A program made the position numbers and the translations under genes. Below are positions 15,146 through 22,588 of a stretch of 63,400 bases of DNA, piece by piece. Within the stretch, counting starts at the first letter, position 1; every line of letters begins with the position of its first letter. The notes under the pieces are model-generated. The model was not told the origin of the DNA and did no database searches. It saw only the letters and a list, made by a program, of their open reading frames with translations. This stretch comes from Oceanospirillaceae bacterium (GTDB lineage: Bacteria > Pseudomonadota > Gammaproteobacteria > Pseudomonadales > Balneatricaceae), in NCBI GenBank assembly GCA_013373085.1, contig JABXIM010000041.1, positions 1 through 63,400 of the forward strand, in the 5' to 3' direction.

Positions 15146-15277
15146 TCAGGCGATTAGCGTGGCGAACAGCAGTTTCAATGCGCTGGTCACCAGCAGCAGG
15201 GTGCCGAGTCCTGCGCCGTAGAGCAGCGCGAAATTGCGCCAGCCCGGGCGGGACGATTGCAGTCGCTCTTCGGTCAT
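15146..15277 (-). CDS. Small single-TM protein after cydB (CydX/DUF2474-like candidate)
   Basis: 43-aa ORF. Its ATG (15277-15275) shares a base with the cydB stop TGA (15279-15277), a TGATG coupling arrangement that strongly argues for real translation. The peptide has a polar N-terminus (MTEERLQSSRPGWRN) and then one long hydrophobic helix up to the C-terminus. Cytochrome bd oxidases generally carry a third, very small one-helix subunit (CydX, or DUF2474-type in CioAB operons) encoded directly after cydB, which stabilises the haem site. Position, size and topology fit; I cannot claim sequence homology by eye. Confidence 0.72.
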   Translation of the reverse strand: MTEERLQSSRPGWRNFALLYGAGLGTLLLVTSALKLLFATLIA

Positions 15278-16272
15278 CAGTATCCTTCCTCGAAGTCCTC
15301 GACCTTGCCGCTGAAGATGCGGTAACCCCAGAGGGTATAGGCGCAGATCAGCGGTACGAAGATCAACACGCCCGGCAGCATGAACTCCAGGCTGGAGGCC
15401 GGTGCCTGGGCCTGCCAGATCGTCAGCTGGCGCGGTACCAGATAGGGGAAGAGCCCCACTACCAGTCCGGCCAGGCCGAGTACGAACAGCGCCGCAGCGA
15501 GGAAAAACGACTGCTGTTCGTTGCGGTGCCGGCCGAGATCCCGCAGCAGTTTCTGCCCCACCCAGAGGCTCATCAGCGGCAGCGGGCTCAGCAGCAGCAG
15601 ATTGAAGCCGCTGAACCAGCGTTCACGGATCTGGGGCTCTGCGATCAGGGTCCAGACGCTGACCACGAACATGGCCGCCATCACCGCAACGACCAGTACG
15701 CGCCCCAGTTTCGCCGCCCGGAAGCGGATGGCGCCGCGGCTTTTCATGTGCAGGTAGCAGCAGGCGAGCAGCGCGTAGCCGGCCATTACCGAGAAGGCGG
15801 TCAGGATCGAGAACGGCGACAGCCAGTTGAGGCTCGAGCCGTCGATGGCGCCGGCTTCGACGCCCTGTACCACGGCGCCGAGCATCAGGCCCTGGCAGAA
15901 CGCGGCGACGGTCGAGCCGATCGAGAAGGCCCTGTCCCACCAACGCTTGGAACGGTGGGCCTTGAAGCGATACTCGAAGGCGACGCCGCGGAAGATCAGC
16001 GCGATCAGCATGATCATGATCGGCACATAGAGTGTCGAGAGGATGGCGCTGTAGGCGGCCGGAAAGGCGCCGAACAGGATGACACCGCCGAATACCAGCC
16101 AGGTCTCGTTGCCGTCCCAGACATGGGAGATCGAGCGCATCATCTGGTCACGCTGATCCTCCTGATCGAACCAGGGGTAGAGGATGCCGAGGCCGAGATC
16201 GAAGCCATCGAGTACCACGTACATCAGGATGGCGAAGCCCAGCAGCAGAAAGTAGAAGAATGCCAGTTCCAT
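15277..16272 (-). CDS. cydB: Cytochrome bd-type quinol oxidase subunit II
   Basis: 331 aa integral membrane protein with about 8-9 helices. The N-terminus shows the subunit II signature GFAILMYVVLDGFDLGLGIL and the VWDGNETWLV motif. The length (near 335 rather than 378) and sequence style fit the cyanide-insensitive CioB branch. With CydA it forms the bd oxidase, which reduces O2 to water with quinol electrons, has high oxygen affinity and resists cyanide, NO and sulfide. It overlaps cydA by one base and the following 43-aa ORF by one base. Confidence 0.95.
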   Translation of the reverse strand: MELAFFYFLLLGFAILMYVVLDGFDLGLGILYPWFDQEDQRDQMMRSISHVWDGNETWLVFGGVILFGAFPAAYSAILSTLYVPIMIMLIALIFRGVAFEYRFKAHRSKRWWDRAFSIGSTVAAFCQGLMLGAVVQGVEAGAIDGSSLNWLSPFSILTAFSVMAGYALLACCYLHMKSRGAIRFRAAKLGRVLVVAVMAAMFVVSVWTLIAEPQIRERWFSGFNLLLLSPLPLMSLWVGQKLLRDLGRHRNEQQSFFLAAALFVLGLAGLVVGLFPYLVPRQLTIWQAQAPASSLEFMLPGVLIFVPLICAYTLWGYRIFSGKVEDFEEGY

Positions 16273-17678
16273 CAGTGTGCCTTCTCGAGCTGTTCGAACT
16301 GTTTGACCCAGGCCAGGGCATAACCGGGCGCGTGGGTACCGATGACCTGGTCTTTCAAGGTCGAAGGGTCGGGCGCGCCTTTGCGGATCAGCTTGGCCAT
16401 GAAATAGAGGTAGACGCCGAGCAGCAGGCTGTAGGTGACGGCGAACAGCGTCAGCGAAAACAGCACGCGTTCAGCCGGCAGCGGCGATACCACGTCCACC
16501 GTGCGAATCAGGCCATTGACCAGCCACGGCTGACGCCCCACTTCGACCACGTACCAGCCGGAGACGGTGGCAATAACCCCCGCCGGCGTGAGCAGCACGC
16601 AGGCACGCAGCAGCCGTCGGTCGGTGAACATCCTGCCTTTGCGCCGCAGCCAGTAAGCGTAGAACGCCAGGGCAATCATCAGCACGCCGATGCCGACCAT
16701 GATCCGGAAGCTGAAGAAGACGACCGCTACCGGCGGACGGTCTTCGGGCGCGACCGATTTCAGGCCCTGCAGTTCGCCATTGAACTCGTGGGCCAGGATC
16801 AGGCTGGCCAGGTGCGGGATCGGGATTTCGAAATGGTTGGTTTCGTTTTCCATGTCCGGAAGGGCGAACAGCAGCAGCGGAGCGCCTTTTTCGGTTTCCG
16901 GCCAGATGCCTTCCATCGCCGCTACTTTTATCGGCTGGTGCTCCTTGACGTTGAGGCCGTGGAAGTCGCCGACCAGCGCCTGCAGCGGTGCCAGAAAGAG
17001 GGCTGCCCACAGGGCCATCGAGAGACCCTTGCGTGCCATTGGCTGATGACGCTGTTTCAGCAGGTACCAGGCACAGACGCCGGCCACTACGAAGGTCGCG
17101 GCAAGCATTGTCGCAAGCAGCATGTGCACCAGGCGGTACGGCATCGACGGGTTGAAGATAACCTCACTCCAACTGGCGACCTGATAGACGCCGTCGACAA
17201 CCTCGTAGCCGGCGGGCGTCTGCATCCAGGAGTTGGCGACGATGATCCAGAATGCCGACAGCCAGGTACCCAGCGCCACCACGACGGTTGAGAAGAAGTG
17301 CAGTTTCTCGCTGACCCGCTGCCAGCCGAACAGCATGACGCCGAGGAAGCCGGCTTCTAGGAAGAAGGCGGTCAGTACTTCGTAAGCCATCAGCGGACCC
17401 AGCACGGGACCGGTAATGCGCGAAAACTCGGAGAAGTTGGTACCGAATTCGTACGACAGCACGATACCCGACACTACGCCCATACCGAAGGTGATGGCGA
17501 AGGGTTTGATCCAGAACTTCGCCAGCTGCAGGTAGACCGGGTTGCGGGTCTTGAGCCAGAGGCCCTCCCAGACGGCGATGAAGGTCGCCATACCGATGGT
17601 CACCGACGGGAAAAGAATATGAAAGCTGACCGTGAGCGCGAATTGCACTCGCGACAACAGGGCGGCATCTAGTTCCAT
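16272..17678 (-). CDS. cydA: Cytochrome bd-type quinol oxidase subunit I (CioA-like, short Q-loop)
   Basis: 468 aa. It carries the haem ligands of subunit I: His20 in TVSFHILFPS, a His in PYRLVHMLLA for haem b558, and the Met in FFSFRIMVGIG. The GWYVVEVGRQPW motif is also present. The periplasmic Q-loop is short, which with the length (under 480) places it with CioA-type enzymes rather than E. coli CydA. The ATG follows a GGCGGAG ribosome site 10 bases after a 32-codon ORF. The operon is controlled by the region 17788-17954, which has a sigma54-type promoter. Confidence 0.95.
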   Translation of the reverse strand: MELDAALLSRVQFALTVSFHILFPSVTIGMATFIAVWEGLWLKTRNPVYLQLAKFWIKPFAITFGMGVVSGIVLSYEFGTNFSEFSRITGPVLGPLMAYEVLTAFFLEAGFLGVMLFGWQRVSEKLHFFSTVVVALGTWLSAFWIIVANSWMQTPAGYEVVDGVYQVASWSEVIFNPSMPYRLVHMLLATMLAATFVVAGVCAWYLLKQRHQPMARKGLSMALWAALFLAPLQALVGDFHGLNVKEHQPIKVAAMEGIWPETEKGAPLLLFALPDMENETNHFEIPIPHLASLILAHEFNGELQGLKSVAPEDRPPVAVVFFSFRIMVGIGVLMIALAFYAYWLRRKGRMFTDRRLLRACVLLTPAGVIATVSGWYVVEVGRQPWLVNGLIRTVDVVSPLPAERVLFSLTLFAVTYSLLLGVYLYFMAKLIRKGAPDPSTLKDQVIGTHAPGYALAWVKQFEQLEKAH

Positions 17679-17688
17679 TAGCTCCGCC

Positions 17689-17787
17689 TCAGCGCTGACG
17701 CAGCTTCTGAACCAGTGCCGGCGAGCAGGCGATGGTCAGTACGGCGGCCAGAGTCAGGAATTCGGTCATCAGCATAGAGAATTGCAT
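17689..17787 (-). CDS. Small hydrophobic protein encoded just before cydA
   Basis: 32-aa ORF: short N-terminus (MQFSMLMTE), one hydrophobic helix and a basic tail ending KLRQR. The ATG at 17787 has GGGAG at a good distance, and the stop is 10 bases before the cydA start, so it would be the first gene of the cyd transcript. It could be a fourth small oxidase subunit (compare CydX, CydY/CydH of other bd oxidases) or a leader peptide. No homology is claimed. Longer readings of this frame further upstream cross the promoter elements and are unlikely. Confidence 0.6.
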   Translation of the reverse strand: MQFSMLMTEFLTLAAVLTIACSPALVQKLRQR

Positions 17788-17822
17788 TTTGGGATCTCCC
17801 ATTAAAAGTTTTGCAGGAATAA

Positions 17823-17838
17823 AGCAGGATCCGTGCCA
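17823..17838 (-). promoter_or_regulatory. Sigma54 (RpoN) promoter for the cyd operon
   Basis: On the minus strand the sequence is TGGCACGGATCCTGCT, against the consensus TGGCACG-N4-TTGCW. The -24 half is perfect, the -12 GC is present at exact spacing, and only one base deviates. Transcription would start near 17812, about 25 bases before the 32-codon ORF. The divergently encoded NtrC-class regulator at 19960 is the obvious activator. Confidence 0.78.
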
Positions 17839-17863
17839 GCTTTGAAAAGGTGCGCCAGGTGCC

Positions 17864-17877
17864 TTGATTTCGGTCAA
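17864..17877. promoter_or_regulatory. FNR/ANR-like box
   Basis: TTGATTTCGGTCAA differs at one base from TTGAT-N4-ATCAA, the binding site of FNR/ANR oxygen sensors. Its centre is about 58 bases upstream of the predicted sigma54 start of the cyd operon. ANR is known to control cioAB in Pseudomonas, so an oxygen input here is plausible. Confidence 0.6.
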
Positions 17878-17898
17878 GCAGCTATGGAAAACTGCCCC

Positions 17899-17951
17899 AA
17901 GGTGTAAACTTGGTAGACAGTACCTTCGTCTAAGGTGTAAACGTTGTTTAC
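17899..17951. promoter_or_regulatory. Twin dyad sites, candidate enhancer (UAS) for the NtrC-class regulator
   Basis: AAGGTGTAAAC occurs at 17899-17909 and again at 17932-17942, 33 bp apart (about three helical turns). Each begins a dyad: GTAAACTTGGTAGAC (17904-17918, imperfect) and GTAAACGTTGTTTAC (17937-17951, nearly perfect). Their centres lie about 99 and 132 bases upstream of the predicted sigma54 transcription start. That is the usual enhancer position for bacterial enhancer-binding proteins. The second dyad ends 3 bases before the kinase start, so it may also autoregulate the kinase operon. Confidence 0.65.
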
Positions 17952-17954
17952 GGT

Positions 17955-19832
17955 GTGGCCACGGTGATTGCATTCGAACTGATGATGCTGGTGACCAGCG
18001 TCTGTGCGCTGGTAGTGTCGGGATGGCTGTGGCTGCAGGCCCGGCGTCGACGCAGTCTGCAGGCGCTGAGTGGCTTCGGCGCCATGATGGCGCTTTGGTG
18101 TGGCGGCCATATCGCCATACAGCAGGGTTGGCACCGGCTCGGTATCCTGCTGATTCTGGCGAACCCGCTGATGCCGACGTTCTTCCTGCATTTCGCTACC
18201 CGCTTCGTCTACCCCGGACGGGGGCGGGCACCGCGCTGGCTGGAGTGGCTGAGTCGCCATATGGCGGCCATCTATGCGATCAGTATCGCCGTGATACTGC
18301 TGAGCTGGTTCGGTCCCGGCGGGCGCACGGTGCCGCTGGGACCGTTCGACGCCTTCTTCGTGTTCCAGGGGCTGGGCTGGTTCAATATCGCCTACACGGT
18401 GGTAATCGGCGTGTTCGCGCACCTGGTGCTGGTCTGGGGCCTGAGTGTGCACAAGGGCAATCTGCGACGTTCGATCGTGGCGATGTTTGCCGCCGGCGGC
18501 TGGGGGCTGCTGCTTGCGACCAGTTTCATCTTCCCGTCCCTCGGTATCGATTGGTACCCGTACCCGATGCTGCTGATGCCGAGCTACGTGGTGCTGCTGG
18601 TATACGGCGTGGTGCGCTATCAGATTCTCGAAGCCAACGCCTTCGCCAAGCGCGCCTTGCCCTGGCTGGTGCTGATGCTGGTGCTGCTGGGTGTGATGAT
18701 GCTGATCAGTGCGCTGACTGCGGCCTTTCTTCCCGGTCCGCTGGCCGCAGTGCCGGTGTGGCAGCTGTGGTTGTGCAGCCTGCTGGCGCTGGCCGTGGCG
18801 CTGTTGCTCAAAAGACCCCTCAATGAGTTGTCGGACCAGTTGATCTATCCCGGCGTGCGGCTCAACGAGGGCTTGCTGGAACGCTGGACCAACCGCCTCA
18901 AGTCCGCCGGCAGTTGGGAGTCGCTTGAGGATCTGGCGGCCGAGTTGATCAGCAAGCAGCTCGGGCAGCCGGTCCGCATCCTGCTGCAGCAAGCGGGCGC
19001 GCCGGTACCGGCCGTCAGCAGTCGTGGCTTGCATATCCTCTGCCTGCATCGCGTCACCGGCTGGCGTTTTCGCCTCGAAGGCTGGGATGACGTCAAACCC
19101 GGTCTGCGCCTCACCGGTGAGGTATTCGGATCGCTGCTGGCGACCAGTTGCGGCCTGCTCGAGCGCTCGCTGCAGCTGGCCGAGGCCGAACGCCGCCGTC
19201 TCGCCAGTGAGCATCTGGTGGAGCTTGGCAGCCTGTCCGCGGTTATGGCCCATGAGCTGCGCAATCCGCTCAACGTTATTTCGATGGCGACGGCAGATCT
19301 GCCCAGCGAGCGACGGGCCCTGATCCAGGCGCAGCTCAAGCGCGCCGACCGTCAGATCTCGGATCTGCTGCTGTACTCCGGCCGTATCGAGCCGCAACCG
19401 CAACCGGTGCAGCTGGCGGCGATGCTGGAGAGCCTGCGACCGCTGTTCGACTGGCAGCAGACCGAATTCGAAACGGCAGTGCCGGCTGAGCTCTCGCTGC
19501 AGGCCGACCCGCACCGCCTGCAGCAGGTGTTCACCAACCTGATCGACAATGCGCTCAGTTTCGTGCGCAACAGCGCCGGCAGTCGTATCCGTGTCGATGC
19601 CGATGACAGCGGGCGCTGTATCCGGATCCACAACAACGGACCGGCGATCGATCCGTCGCTGCACGATAGCCTGTTCCAGCCGTTCGTCAGCCGCCGGGCC
19701 GGCGGCAGCGGGCTGGGCCTGGCGATAGTGAGACGGATTATGGACGCGCATGGCGGCGACGTCCGCCTGCGTACGGATCTCGGCTGGCCCGTAACCTTCG
19801 AACTGGTGTTTCCCGAGCGGGCAATGACATGA
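17955..19832 (+). CDS. Membrane sensor histidine kinase
   Basis: 625 aa. Residues 1 to about 285 contain about eight hydrophobic helices forming a membrane sensor module. A linker of about 130 residues follows, weakly GAF-like. The kinase core has the H-box with phospho-acceptor His433 in VMAHELRNPLN, the N-box NLIDNALSF and the glycine box GGSGLGLAIVRRIMDAHGG. A GTG start directly after the palindromic site is used, but the ribosome site is poor and GTG 17964 is an alternative. It is divergent from cydAB and upstream of its cognate sigma54 activator. Membrane redox state or quinol is a natural but unproven signal. Confidence 0.88.
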   Translation: MATVIAFELMMLVTSVCALVVSGWLWLQARRRRSLQALSGFGAMMALWCGGHIAIQQGWHRLGILLILANPLMPTFFLHFATRFVYPGRGRAPRWLEWLSRHMAAIYAISIAVILLSWFGPGGRTVPLGPFDAFFVFQGLGWFNIAYTVVIGVFAHLVLVWGLSVHKGNLRRSIVAMFAAGGWGLLLATSFIFPSLGIDWYPYPMLLMPSYVVLLVYGVVRYQILEANAFAKRALPWLVLMLVLLGVMMLISALTAAFLPGPLAAVPVWQLWLCSLLALAVALLLKRPLNELSDQLIYPGVRLNEGLLERWTNRLKSAGSWESLEDLAAELISKQLGQPVRILLQQAGAPVPAVSSRGLHILCLHRVTGWRFRLEGWDDVKPGLRLTGEVFGSLLATSCGLLERSLQLAEAERRRLASEHLVELGSLSAVMAHELRNPLNVISMATADLPSERRALIQAQLKRADRQISDLLLYSGRIEPQPQPVQLAAMLESLRPLFDWQQTEFETAVPAELSLQADPHRLQQVFTNLIDNALSFVRNSAGSRIRVDADDSGRCIRIHNNGPAIDPSLHDSLFQPFVSRRAGGSGLGLAIVRRIMDAHGGDVRLRTDLGWPVTFELVFPERAMT

Positions 19833-19963
19833 AGCGACCGGCGTTCTTTGACGAAACAACGCGCCATGGACGGCTCATATGGCGCGGCGATGTCCGCCTG
19901 CGTACGGATCTCGGCTGGCCGGTGACCTTTGAACTTAGTTTTCCTGCGGAGGCTTCGTCATGA
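19829..19963 (+). CDS. 44-codon linker ORF repeating the kinase C-terminus
   Basis: The ATG overlaps the kinase stop (ATGA at 19829-19832) and the stop overlaps the regulator ATG (ATGA at 19960-19963), so all three are translationally coupled. The 44-aa product begins MKRPAFFDETTRHG. It then has GDVRLRTDLGWPVTFEL, 17 residues identical to the last part of the kinase. At DNA level those 17 codons differ at five positions, all silent. It could be a scar of a partial duplication or a short protein copy of the kinase tail. The reading frame differs from that of the kinase, so it is not simple read-through. Confidence 0.55.
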   Translation: MKRPAFFDETTRHGRLIWRGDVRLRTDLGWPVTFELSFPAEASS

Positions 19964-21324
19964 GCAAGCCCAGAATTCTGCTGATCGACGACGAGCCGGC
20001 GTTTCGCTCGCTGTGCGAGCAGTGGCTGATCAGCGCCGGTTACGAGGTGCGTGGCGGCGCCAGCGTCGAGGAGGCGAGGGCGCTGCTCGGTCCGTTCGAT
20101 CCCGATCTGCTGCTGCTGGACCTGTCGCTGCCGCCGCACTTCGATCCAGCCGACACCCTCAAGGCCGTACCGGAGTTCGCCAGTCGGCCGGTGATCATCC
20201 TCACCGGTCATGCCGATCGCGAGCTGGCGCTGTACGCGATGCGACAGGGGGCCTGGGATTTCCTCGCCAAGCCGCTGGACCCGGATATGCTGGCGGTGGT
20301 GGTCAAGCGGGCGGTGACCAAGCACCAGCTTAGCCGCGAGCTGCAGCTGCTGCGCAACGGGCCGGCGAGCGGAACGCCGCTGGACCGGCTCATCGGTGTA
20401 TCGCCGTCGATGACCGGCGTGCGGGCGCTGGTGGAGCGGATTGCGCCGACCGATGCCCGGGTTCTGGTGACCGGGCCCTCCGGCACCGGCAAGGAGGTGA
20501 TATCCCGGGCGCTGCATGACCTCAGTTTGCGCGCCGAAGGCCCCTTCATCTCGGTGCATTGCGGGGCCATTCCAGCGGATCTGCTGGAAAGCGAGCTGTT
20601 CGGGTATGTGAAGGGCGCCTTTACCGGGGCCGACCGTGACCGCGACGGCCTGCTCAAGCTGGCCGACGGCGGCACGTTGTTCCTCGATGAAATCGGCGAA
20701 ATGCCGCTGCCGATGCAGGTCAAGCTGCTGCGGGTGTTGCAGGAGGGCAACTTTTACCCGGTCGGCGGGCGTACCCTGCAGCAGATCAACGTGAGGGTGG
20801 TCTCGGCCACCAATGCCAACCTGCCGGAGCGGGTTTCTCGGGGGGAGTTCCGCGAGGATCTGTACTACCGCATCAAGGGTGTCACGATTGAAACCCGGCC
20901 ACTGTCCGAGCGGCCTGAGGATATACCGCTGCTGGTGCGCCATTTCCTGTCGCAGCAGGCGCAGAACAGCGGCCAGCCGCCGCTGCATCTCGATCCGGAA
21001 GTGCTCGACTGGTTGCTGCGGCGCAAATGGCCGGGCAATGTGCGGGAATTGCGCAACAGCCTGGAGAGTATCTGTGCGCTGAGCCGGGGAGGGCGGGTGA
21101 CACTGGAGGATGTCGCGCTGCTTCATCCTGGTGCCCAGTCGGGTACGGCGGCTGACGAAATGATCGATTCCGATGCGCCGCTGGAGGAGCAGGTCAGGGC
21201 GCTGGAGATCCGCGTGATTCGCAGGGCGCTGGTGCAGTACGATGGCAACCGCACCCGGGCCGCCACGGCGCTGGGGCTCTCACGCCAGGGTCTGCTGAAG
21301 AAAATCGAACGCTACGGACTCTGA
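19960..21324 (+). CDS. NtrC-class sigma54-dependent response regulator
   Basis: 454 aa with three domains. The receiver is residues 1-120 (acidic D10/D11, phospho-acceptor Asp54 in [10 protein letters not shown], Lys104). The AAA+ domain is about 143-370 (Walker A GPSGTGKE at 172-179, the sigma54-contacting GAFTGA at 219-224, Walker [10 protein letters not shown]). The Fis-type helix-turn-helix is at the end ([18 protein letters not shown]). An intact GAFTGA means it activates sigma54 promoters, and one faces cydAB in the adjacent control region. It is translated in coupling with the upstream small ORF and kinase. Overall architecture is like PrsR/ZraR/NtrC regulators. Confidence 0.95.
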
Positions 21325-21426: not shown

Positions 21427-21825
21427 ATGAACGGACACAGCAAAGTTATAGGTTATCTGCTCTGGATCTTCGGTTTCATGGGCGCACACCGTTTCTACTA
21501 TGGCCGCCCGGTTAGCGGCACCCTGTATTTTTTCACCCTGGGGCTGTTTCTGATCGGCTGGATCGTTGACCTGTTCCTGATTCCGGCGCTGGACCGCGAC
21601 GCCGAATTCAGTTTCCGTCCGGGTCCGAACGATTACAATATCGCCTGGATTCTGCTGACCTTCCTCGGTATTTTTGGCGTGCACCGCTTCTATCTGGGCA
21701 AATGGCTCAGTGGGTTGCTTTATCTGCTGACCGGCGGGTTCTTCCTGGTCGGTGTCATTTATGACTACTGGACGCTGAACGATCAGGTCAGCGAATTGAA
21801 CGGCGAAGCCGCAGCCCGGGGCTGA
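21427..21825 (+). CDS. TM2-domain membrane protein with two repeats
   Basis: 132 aa. Two copies of a TM2 module are visible: GYLLWIFGFMGAHRFYYGRP near residue 9, and ILLTFLGIFGVHRFYLGKW near residue 75. Each has the G-x-HRFY-x-G pattern between hydrophobic helices. TM2 proteins are small membrane proteins of unclear function. It starts about 100 bases after the response regulator and is followed by two more small membrane-protein genes. Whether it belongs to the two-component operon is not clear. Confidence 0.82.
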   Translation: MNGHSKVIGYLLWIFGFMGAHRFYYGRPVSGTLYFFTLGLFLIGWIVDLFLIPALDRDAEFSFRPGPNDYNIAWILLTFLGIFGVHRFYLGKWLSGLLYLLTGGFFLVGVIYDYWTLNDQVSELNGEAAARG

Positions 21826-21883
21826 CTGGCAGGGGTCTCACCCTGGCTCGGGACTATCACTGGCATGAGGGAATGATTGGCTA

Positions 21884-22258
21884 ATGGACGTGAAATACTC
21901 TGAATACCCGGCAATGTTCAAGAACAACCCCTTGGGTTTTCTGTTGTCGATCCTGCTGGTGCCAGTCGGTATCGGCATCATCATCCTGATGGTTTGGTAC
22001 CTCAAGTGCAAGTCGACGCGACTGGAAGTGACCGAGCGCGAACTGATTGTCGAGCGCGGTCTGCTGAGCAAGGACCGCACCGAACTGTCGCTCGCCAGCA
22101 TCCGCACGGTGAACGTCTACCAGTCGTTTTTCAACCGTATCTTCGGTGTCGGCAAGATTGCCGTCTATACCGCCGGTGACGAGGCCGAGGTGGAAGTGGC
22201 GGGCCTGCCGGATCCGCACCGGCTGCGGGAACTGATCAAGCAGGGGCAGCCGGCATGA
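21884..22258 (+). CDS. Bacterial PH-domain (bPH2-like) membrane protein
   Basis: 124 aa. An N-terminal hydrophobic hairpin (residues about 18-45) is followed by a soluble beta-rich domain with TRLEVTERELIVERGLLSKD and a later SIRTVNVYQSFFNRIFGVG stretch, typical of the bacterial PH domain group related to YdbS/YdbT. These proteins are membrane-associated and poorly characterised. It lies between the TM2 gene and another small membrane-protein gene in the same direction. Confidence 0.78.
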   Translation: MDVKYSEYPAMFKNNPLGFLLSILLVPVGIGIIILMVWYLKCKSTRLEVTERELIVERGLLSKDRTELSLASIRTVNVYQSFFNRIFGVGKIAVYTAGDEAEVEVAGLPDPHRLRELIKQGQPA

Positions 22259-22273
22259 GTGTGGGGCTGAACG

Positions 22274-22588
22274 ATGGCGCCTGATCAGGACTCCAGGGAC
22301 AAGCGCCAGGCTCGCGGCGTGTTGCTGGCGATTCTGGTGCTGCTGAGCCTGCTGTTGGCCGCCGGAGTGCTGTTGTTGCCGCAGTTGGCGCAGATTGCCG
22401 AAACCAGCCTGGAGCCCGGGCTCGGGCTGAAAAATGCCGCTGTCATCTCGTTTTTCGTCACGGTGGCGCTGATGGTGGTCTTCGCGATCGCCGCAGGCGA
22501 TGGCTTTATCGGCGAGATCCAGTTCATGCTTGCAGGGTTCGCATCCTTTTTCGTCGTGATCTGGCTGATGCTGGCATGGATCTTTTGA
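22274..22588 (+). CDS. Hypothetical small membrane protein
   Basis: 104 aa with a basic N-terminus (MAPDQDSRDKRQARG) and three hydrophobic segments (about residues 16-40, 53-72 and 82-103). No family is recognised. It starts 15 bases after the PH-domain gene stop and reads in the same direction, so the TM2, PH and this gene probably form one small operon with membrane-related function. Confidence 0.65.
   Translation: MAPDQDSRDKRQARGVLLAILVLLSLLLAAGVLLLPQLAQIAETSLEPGLGLKNAAVISFFVTVALMVVFAIAAGDGFIGEIQFMLAGFASFFVVIWLMLAWIF

Follow-up and report, generated by a model that had tools for sequence, protein, structure and literature searches.

A candidate two-component, sigma54-dependent switch beside the genes of a CIO-type cytochrome bd oxidase

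The control of alternative oxidases decides how bacteria survive respiratory poisons and low oxygen. In an Oceanospirillaceae bacterium the genes cydAB lie back to back with those of a membrane histidine kinase and an NtrC-class regulator, and the question raised by this locus is whether the pair is there to control the oxidase. The DNA analysed is a stretch of 63,400 nucleotides (contig JABXIM010000041.1), here called the window. An initial annotation of it took the arrangement for a self-contained module in which the oxidase is turned on through RpoN. The layout of the genes, the sites between them and their conservation indicate that the locus is very probably a dedicated two-component, sigma54-dependent switch for the bd oxidase. 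The module is a new combination of known parts.

The locus and its control region

The features of the locus, by position in the window, are:

15146-15277, minus strand: trailing small ORF, 43 aa, with one hydrophobic span, overlapping the cydB stop
15277-16272, minus strand: cydB, bd oxidase subunit II (PF02322, E=5.8e-95; TIGR00203, 158.7 bits, cut-off 117.3)
16272-17678, minus strand: cydA, short CIO-type bd oxidase subunit I, 468 aa (PF01654, E=2.8e-170)
17689-17787, minus strand: leader small ORF, 32 aa, with a single hydrophobic span and GGGAG upstream
17823-17838, minus strand: predicted sigma54 -24/-12 promoter of the cyd operon, score 15/16
17864-17877, strand not applicable: FNR/ANR-type box TTGATTTCGGTCAA, a pattern match, invariant in 7 aligned Marinobacterium
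17903-17919, strand not applicable: proximal dyad TGTAAACTTGGTAGACA, 17 bp, proposed regulator site
17936-17952, strand not applicable: distal dyad TGTAAACGTTGTTTACG, 17 bp, proposed regulator site
17955-19832, plus strand: membrane histidine kinase, 625 aa (matches to HisKA_7TM, HisKA and HATPase)
19960-21324, plus strand: NtrC-class response regulator, 454 aa (matches to Response_reg, Sigma54_activat and HTH_8)

The order of transcription on the minus strand is the leader ORF, cydA, cydB and the trailing ORF, with the kinase and regulator on the plus strand, and the profile matches for all four main genes agree with the divergent arrangement that had been annotated. By its CydA and CydB domains and its short CydA, the oxidase is a CIO-type cytochrome bd; the 468 aa CydA groups with proteins of CioA length, apart from CydA of 523-527 aa. 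Between the kinase start and the leader ORF are 167 bp; read from the kinase, these contain the distal dyad, the proximal dyad, the FNR-type box and the sigma54 site. The FNR-type box and both small ORFs are additions to the initial annotation. The dyads are 33 bp apart and the distal one ends 2 bp before the kinase start codon. After the regulator, at 21427-22588, are genes for a TM2-domain protein, a bacterial PH-domain protein and a small membrane protein; a TM2 gene is near the module in both named Marinobacterium and was not found in the available flanks of the other 37 named loci.

The sigma54 site reads TGGCACGGATCCTGCT on the minus strand and is directed at cydAB. It has one mismatch to TGGCACGNNNNTTGCW, which we take to be the consensus, with GG-N10-GC at -24/-12 in a TGGCAC/TTGCA context. 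None of 300 shuffles of the region gave a score as high as its 15, and the best score on the opposite strand is 13. There is one rpoN match in the genome. We infer that the cyd operon would be transcribed from this promoter in an RpoN-dependent manner.

Conservation and distribution of the module

A profile search of genome contigs with the kinase identified at least 39 named full-length relatives (E of 1e-127 or better; the next at 5e-30) in genera that include Marinobacterium, Marinomonas, Rheinheimera, Zobellella and Hahella. The nearest named relatives among the matches listed are from two Marinobacterium (87% and 79% identity). The counts use the 39 full-length relatives among the best 80 loci, leaving out 41 partial matches (E of 5e-30 or weaker). 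For all 39 among the matches listed, cydA and cydB are divergent from the kinase and the regulator follows the kinase. One of these, L035, has a broken cydA frame in a Marinomonas pontica draft (matched over 1-222 only) and was kept as found in the counts. In a sample of the order, 26 of 390 genomes have kinase profile matches and the divergent layout is present in 26/26, own genome included. Kinase identity among linked loci goes down to ~40%.

The module is patchily distributed, judging from the whole-genome samples, which partly share genomes with one another and with the named loci. Of the 57 genomes in a first search of relatives, 9 have a full-length kinase, in each case with cydA divergent from it, and the class sample had one profile match in 369 genomes, that of the own genome. 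There are eight matches among the 299 genomes of the phylum sample: G878 and G951 have divergent cydAB, four genomes are without it, and the remaining two, G000 and G061, are included in the earlier counts.

Kinase, regulator and CydA trees, for which 21 of the 39 linked loci were taken, agree in their main groups, as expected of genes inherited together. The 21 linked CydA fall on one side of a branch (98/99), with 17 unlinked CioA-type and 5 long forms on the other. The kinase tree places genera of the Aeromonadaceae beside Marinobacterium (98/97); the CydA tree does so with lower support (84/83), and the regulator tree leaves this grouping open. The agreement of the main groups and the position of the Aeromonadaceae suggest that the module may have been transferred as a block.

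The two matched dyads first seen in the window recur in all 40 loci (the window and the 39 named) as a pair of 17-bp elements spaced 33-36 bp. These pairs score 16-20 of 20; when the loci are shuffled, 0.025% of the shuffles score at least 16. The top-ranked sigma54 site, with best scores of 13-15 in the 40 loci, is 76-81 bp from the proximal dyad in 37, or in 38 if a tied site is counted, since L066 has its first-ranked site at 50 bp and an equal-scoring one at 80. The exceptions are L061 and L064, where the best promoter is 90 and 112 bp away. In L055 the -12 element is CGC and there are ~480 extra bases before cydA. A chance sigma54 match was rejected on this conservation at near-fixed spacing across other genera, and the claim of a site with one mismatch facing cydAB stands. 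The initial annotation had looked to orthologous loci for a decision, and in these the promoter and dyads are retained across many genera. The Fisher p over 15 genus labels is 1.2e-26, a value that assumes independent lineages although they are not independent; the labels were assigned by us, with L067, a MAG whose name goes no further than class, placed under Rheinheimera. In the alignment of 7 Marinobacterium, the long stretches without any change ahead of the leader ORF correspond to the two dyads, TTGACCGAAATCAAGG and both halves of the -24/-12 site; the core between the halves is variable. The regulator is presumed to bind at the dyads on the strength of this conservation.

Forty-two genomes without the module served as controls; 23 have cydA matches, at 26 loci in total. 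The 17 unlinked CioA-type cydA have best sigma54 scores of 10-13, and no dyad pair of 16 or more was found among them. By the criterion used for the 40 loci, a pair occurs in 1/26 control loci (L183, CioA-type, score 15). The idea that such dyads and sigma54 sites are common upstream of any cydA was rejected on these lower scores. The nine control loci with a longer CydA have best sigma54 scores of 11-15, 5/9 being at 13-15 (L188-L192). Next to cydAB, each of these five carries a gene for a PAS_4-AAA-HTH_8 activator, which is divergent in four loci and, in the fifth, convergent on the cydB side. The module is therefore not alone in having sigma54 sites near cydA: the family also contains a second sigma54 arrangement, unrelated to it. 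The genome's own second cydAB (L216, contig C67 of G000) is next to ccoG and lacks the module. Its cydA has a best sigma54 score of 11/16 and no exact-core FNR box in the 500 bp upstream, but this is a weak control because nearly all of that sequence codes for ccoG.

The first gene after the sigma54 site in the window is the leader ORF. An ORF of this kind (ATG start, 26-55 aa, one hydrophobic span) is present between the sigma54 site and cydA in 39/40 loci, absent only in L064, with 0.43 expected; the count uses a distance limit of 130 nt, and a tighter limit gave 25/40, with 0.38 expected. Over pairs of the 7 Marinobacterium, the summed differences by codon position are 148/64/258. The codon differences are 142 synonymous and 193 nonsynonymous, and so the leader peptide is constrained, but not strongly. 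After cydB, an aromatic-rich (LYxxG-like) peptide was seen by eye in 20 of the 21 listed loci, not in L062. Ten leader and trailing peptides had no credible family match in Pfam or NCBIfam, and six leader examples scanned for families gave noise-level matches only. It is a guess that the leader peptide might be an oxidase subunit or assembly factor.

Regulator, kinase and the possible signal

The regulator is made up of REC, AAA+ and a Fis-type HTH, which places it in the NtrC class. Its GAFTGA loop, annotated as intact, is at 219-224 and is invariant, as is D54, in 24 aligned regulators. Such a regulator and a membrane HisKA kinase are shared with the NtrC-class sigma54 two-component systems. 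None of the best 25/91 and 25/74 NCBIfam models for the two proteins reached its cut-off; among these best models, the nearest by profile are NtrC (385.2 of 558.6 bits), AtoC and PrsR for the regulator and AtoS and ZraS for the kinase. Scores for the PrsK/PrsR (XrtA/PEP-CTERM) equivalogs are 378.1 of 502.6 bits for the regulator and 58.4 of 300 for the kinase. The apparent target of the module is a bd oxidase, unlike those of the NtrC-class systems nearest by profile. A short CydA with CydB is common to the module and CioAB; here, however, there is a dedicated divergent sigma54 system, a leader small ORF and a separate branch in the CydA tree.

Activators of the FisR type are defined by an N-terminal regulatory domain that is not a phospho-receiver. 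The module regulator has Response_reg and no PAS match. The parts of the FisR report consulted describe, as in the module, a sigma54 activator divergent from its target but, unlike the regulator here, one without a receiver domain or kinase; FisR activates sulfide-oxidation genes and cydAB is induced by sulfide, FisR control of cydAB not being shown in those parts (PMC7315123). On our own reading, rather than by a profile match, the PAS_4-AAA-HTH_8 activators of the five long loci resemble FisR. TspSR and TcsSR, as far as the account consulted goes, are sigma54 two-component systems beside sox or tetH-doxDA, likened by description to the module as kinase-regulator pairs next to a membrane energy-metabolism operon; they differ in serving sulfur oxidation in Acidithiobacillia, and that text contains neither of the terms cyd and cytochrome (PMC12194929). 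Term look-up found no mention of cyd or oxidase in PMC4641369 or PMC3162934. A link through the cydA2B2 and rpoN mutations of Cupriavidus was discarded, since in the portion consulted the rpoN mutations did not raise CO tolerance (PMC10164946). No bd oxidase under a dedicated kinase and sigma54 activator was found in the open-access literature, in the parts consulted (including PMC2621215 and PMC4626219), which agrees with the initial annotation's statement that none is described, although a description elsewhere is possible.

In predicted structure models the kinase has a seven-helix bundle, two more long helices, a small alpha/beta linker, HisKA and HATPase. Residues H52, H156 and C399 are invariant in 40/40 kinases, with H52 and C399 lost in four distant kinases that have a different target cluster. 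In the model, H52 and H156 are in predicted membrane helices and C399 is on the long helix leading into HisKA. A bis-histidine haem at H52-H156 was considered and set aside, as the predicted helix positions seem to be at different depths. Foldseek matches to the whole kinase were dominated by the kinase domain; the single PDB match of the 7TM profile, to ATP synthase subunit c (E=0.011), was taken as chance.

It is proposed that the kinase reads a membrane state, of which quinone over-reduction or some other sign of blocked main oxidases is the likeliest, and would phosphorylate the neighbouring NtrC-class regulator. The regulator would then bind the two close dyads, located ~100 and 130 bp before the predicted start. 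The DNA between the dyads and the promoter would be bent by FNR/ANR or IHF, allowing for a contact between the regulator and sigma54 polymerase that would fire the leader ORF, cydA, cydB and the trailing ORF. A membrane redox or respiratory-inhibitor signal, as first suggested, is plausible.

It is possible, if somewhat unlikely, that the kinase responds directly to a diffusible inhibitor and not to quinone or redox state; the wiring would be unchanged. Bd oxidases tolerate such inhibitors (cyanide, sulfide, NO and CO). In five genomes of the same family that lack the module, a PAS_4-sigma54 activator adjoins long-form cydAB, and there are sigma54-like sites close to cydA (L197-L201; G024, G025, G009, G017 and G021), and two of these loci have a SoxC-type sulfite dehydrogenase gene (L198) or an SQR-like gene that scores below the cut-off (L201) nearby. 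However, HisKA_7TM is the only known sensor domain that domain profiles identified in the kinase, with no PAS match, and the invariant histidines of the kinase are in predicted membrane helices, with C399 on the helix into HisKA. A signal in the state of the membrane is preferred for this step.

FNR and IHF sites and the remaining alternatives

The FNR core TTGAN6TCAA is present near the promoter in 22/40 loci, with 0.17 expected. A looser pattern, allowing two mismatches, is found in 33/40 loci; single weak matches mean little, as 6.2 are already expected with this pattern. IHF-like sites, with one mismatch allowed, are present between dyad and promoter in 25/40 loci, with 7.6 expected, and 23 of these are at -28/-29, where an ATCAA block is common to the FNR and IHF patterns. 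An FNR-type box inside the control region, with IHF-like sites elsewhere at about the same place, makes it probable that global oxygen and DNA-architecture regulators take part in cyd control, and FNR may replace IHF as the bending protein. The wiring through a dedicated kinase and sigma54 activator is supported by the sequence conservation of the promoter and dyads, but to call it 'self-contained', as in the initial annotation, is too strong in light of the FNR-type box. The module is dedicated, yet probably not isolated from oxygen control, and the box leaves room for an extra cyd start without sigma54.

This box raises the alternative that cydAB is mainly under ANR/FNR, with the kinase-regulator pair and sigma54 site as a second input that is minor or confined to certain conditions. 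ANR is known to control the cio genes of Pseudomonas, and the box is inside the control region. However, no FNR-like box was found near the promoter in 7/40 loci even with two mismatches allowed, and the exact cores are upstream in 7 loci (-36 to -39 from the start of the -24 element) and downstream in 15 (+31 to +44), while the dyads and sigma54 site hold their spacing. Nor was a sigma70-like hexamer pair found at 17650-18000, a weak result with 0.2 expected. Predominant ANR/FNR control is thus improbable, and the dedicated sigma54-dependent switch is retained.

A fuller reading of this switch can be offered, although it is rather unlikely to be right. The kinase would be a GPCR-like seven-helix receptor for the quinone pool, with a pocket formed by H52 and its neighbours and a redox switch, C399, beside HisKA. 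The sigma54 promoter would use FNR/ANR where sister lineages use IHF, so that oxygen gates DNA bending. In Marinobacterium the promoter would then act as an AND gate, requiring both low oxygen and blocked respiration; in Marinomonas, which has its FNR box downstream of the promoter, the logic would be the opposite.

If the proposed switch is true, it would add a layer of control for bd oxidases that is conserved in several families of Gammaproteobacteria, many of which are marine. With one kinase, one regulator and one operon, the system would be experimentally simple for studying how respiratory state is read by a membrane protein, and the loci can be compared as a series where FNR and IHF sites seem to swap places on one promoter.

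Within the genome, the dyad pattern has 33 matches per strand with one mismatch or fewer, and the pattern read backward, as a control, has 54. Isolated dyads are uninformative because the control outnumbers them, and a search for a wider regulon by this pattern was abandoned. One other match that was inspected, on contig C16, is inside a coding region.

That the pair has another main target and neighbours cydAB by chance is very improbable: four relatives of another class do face a cluster with an SDR-DoxX_3 fusion, but the linkage holds in 39/39 (among the matches listed) and 26/26 over deep divergence of the kinase, and two of the genome's 33 dyad matches are within 1 kb of each other only at the cyd locus. 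Since those four distant kinase-regulator pairs (L147-L150) face other genes, a tie to bd oxidase is not general in the wider kinase family. The SDR-DoxX_3 fusion is found in 4/4 of the clusters and DUF2269 in 3/4, and dyad-like and sigma54-like sequences are present between the facing genes.
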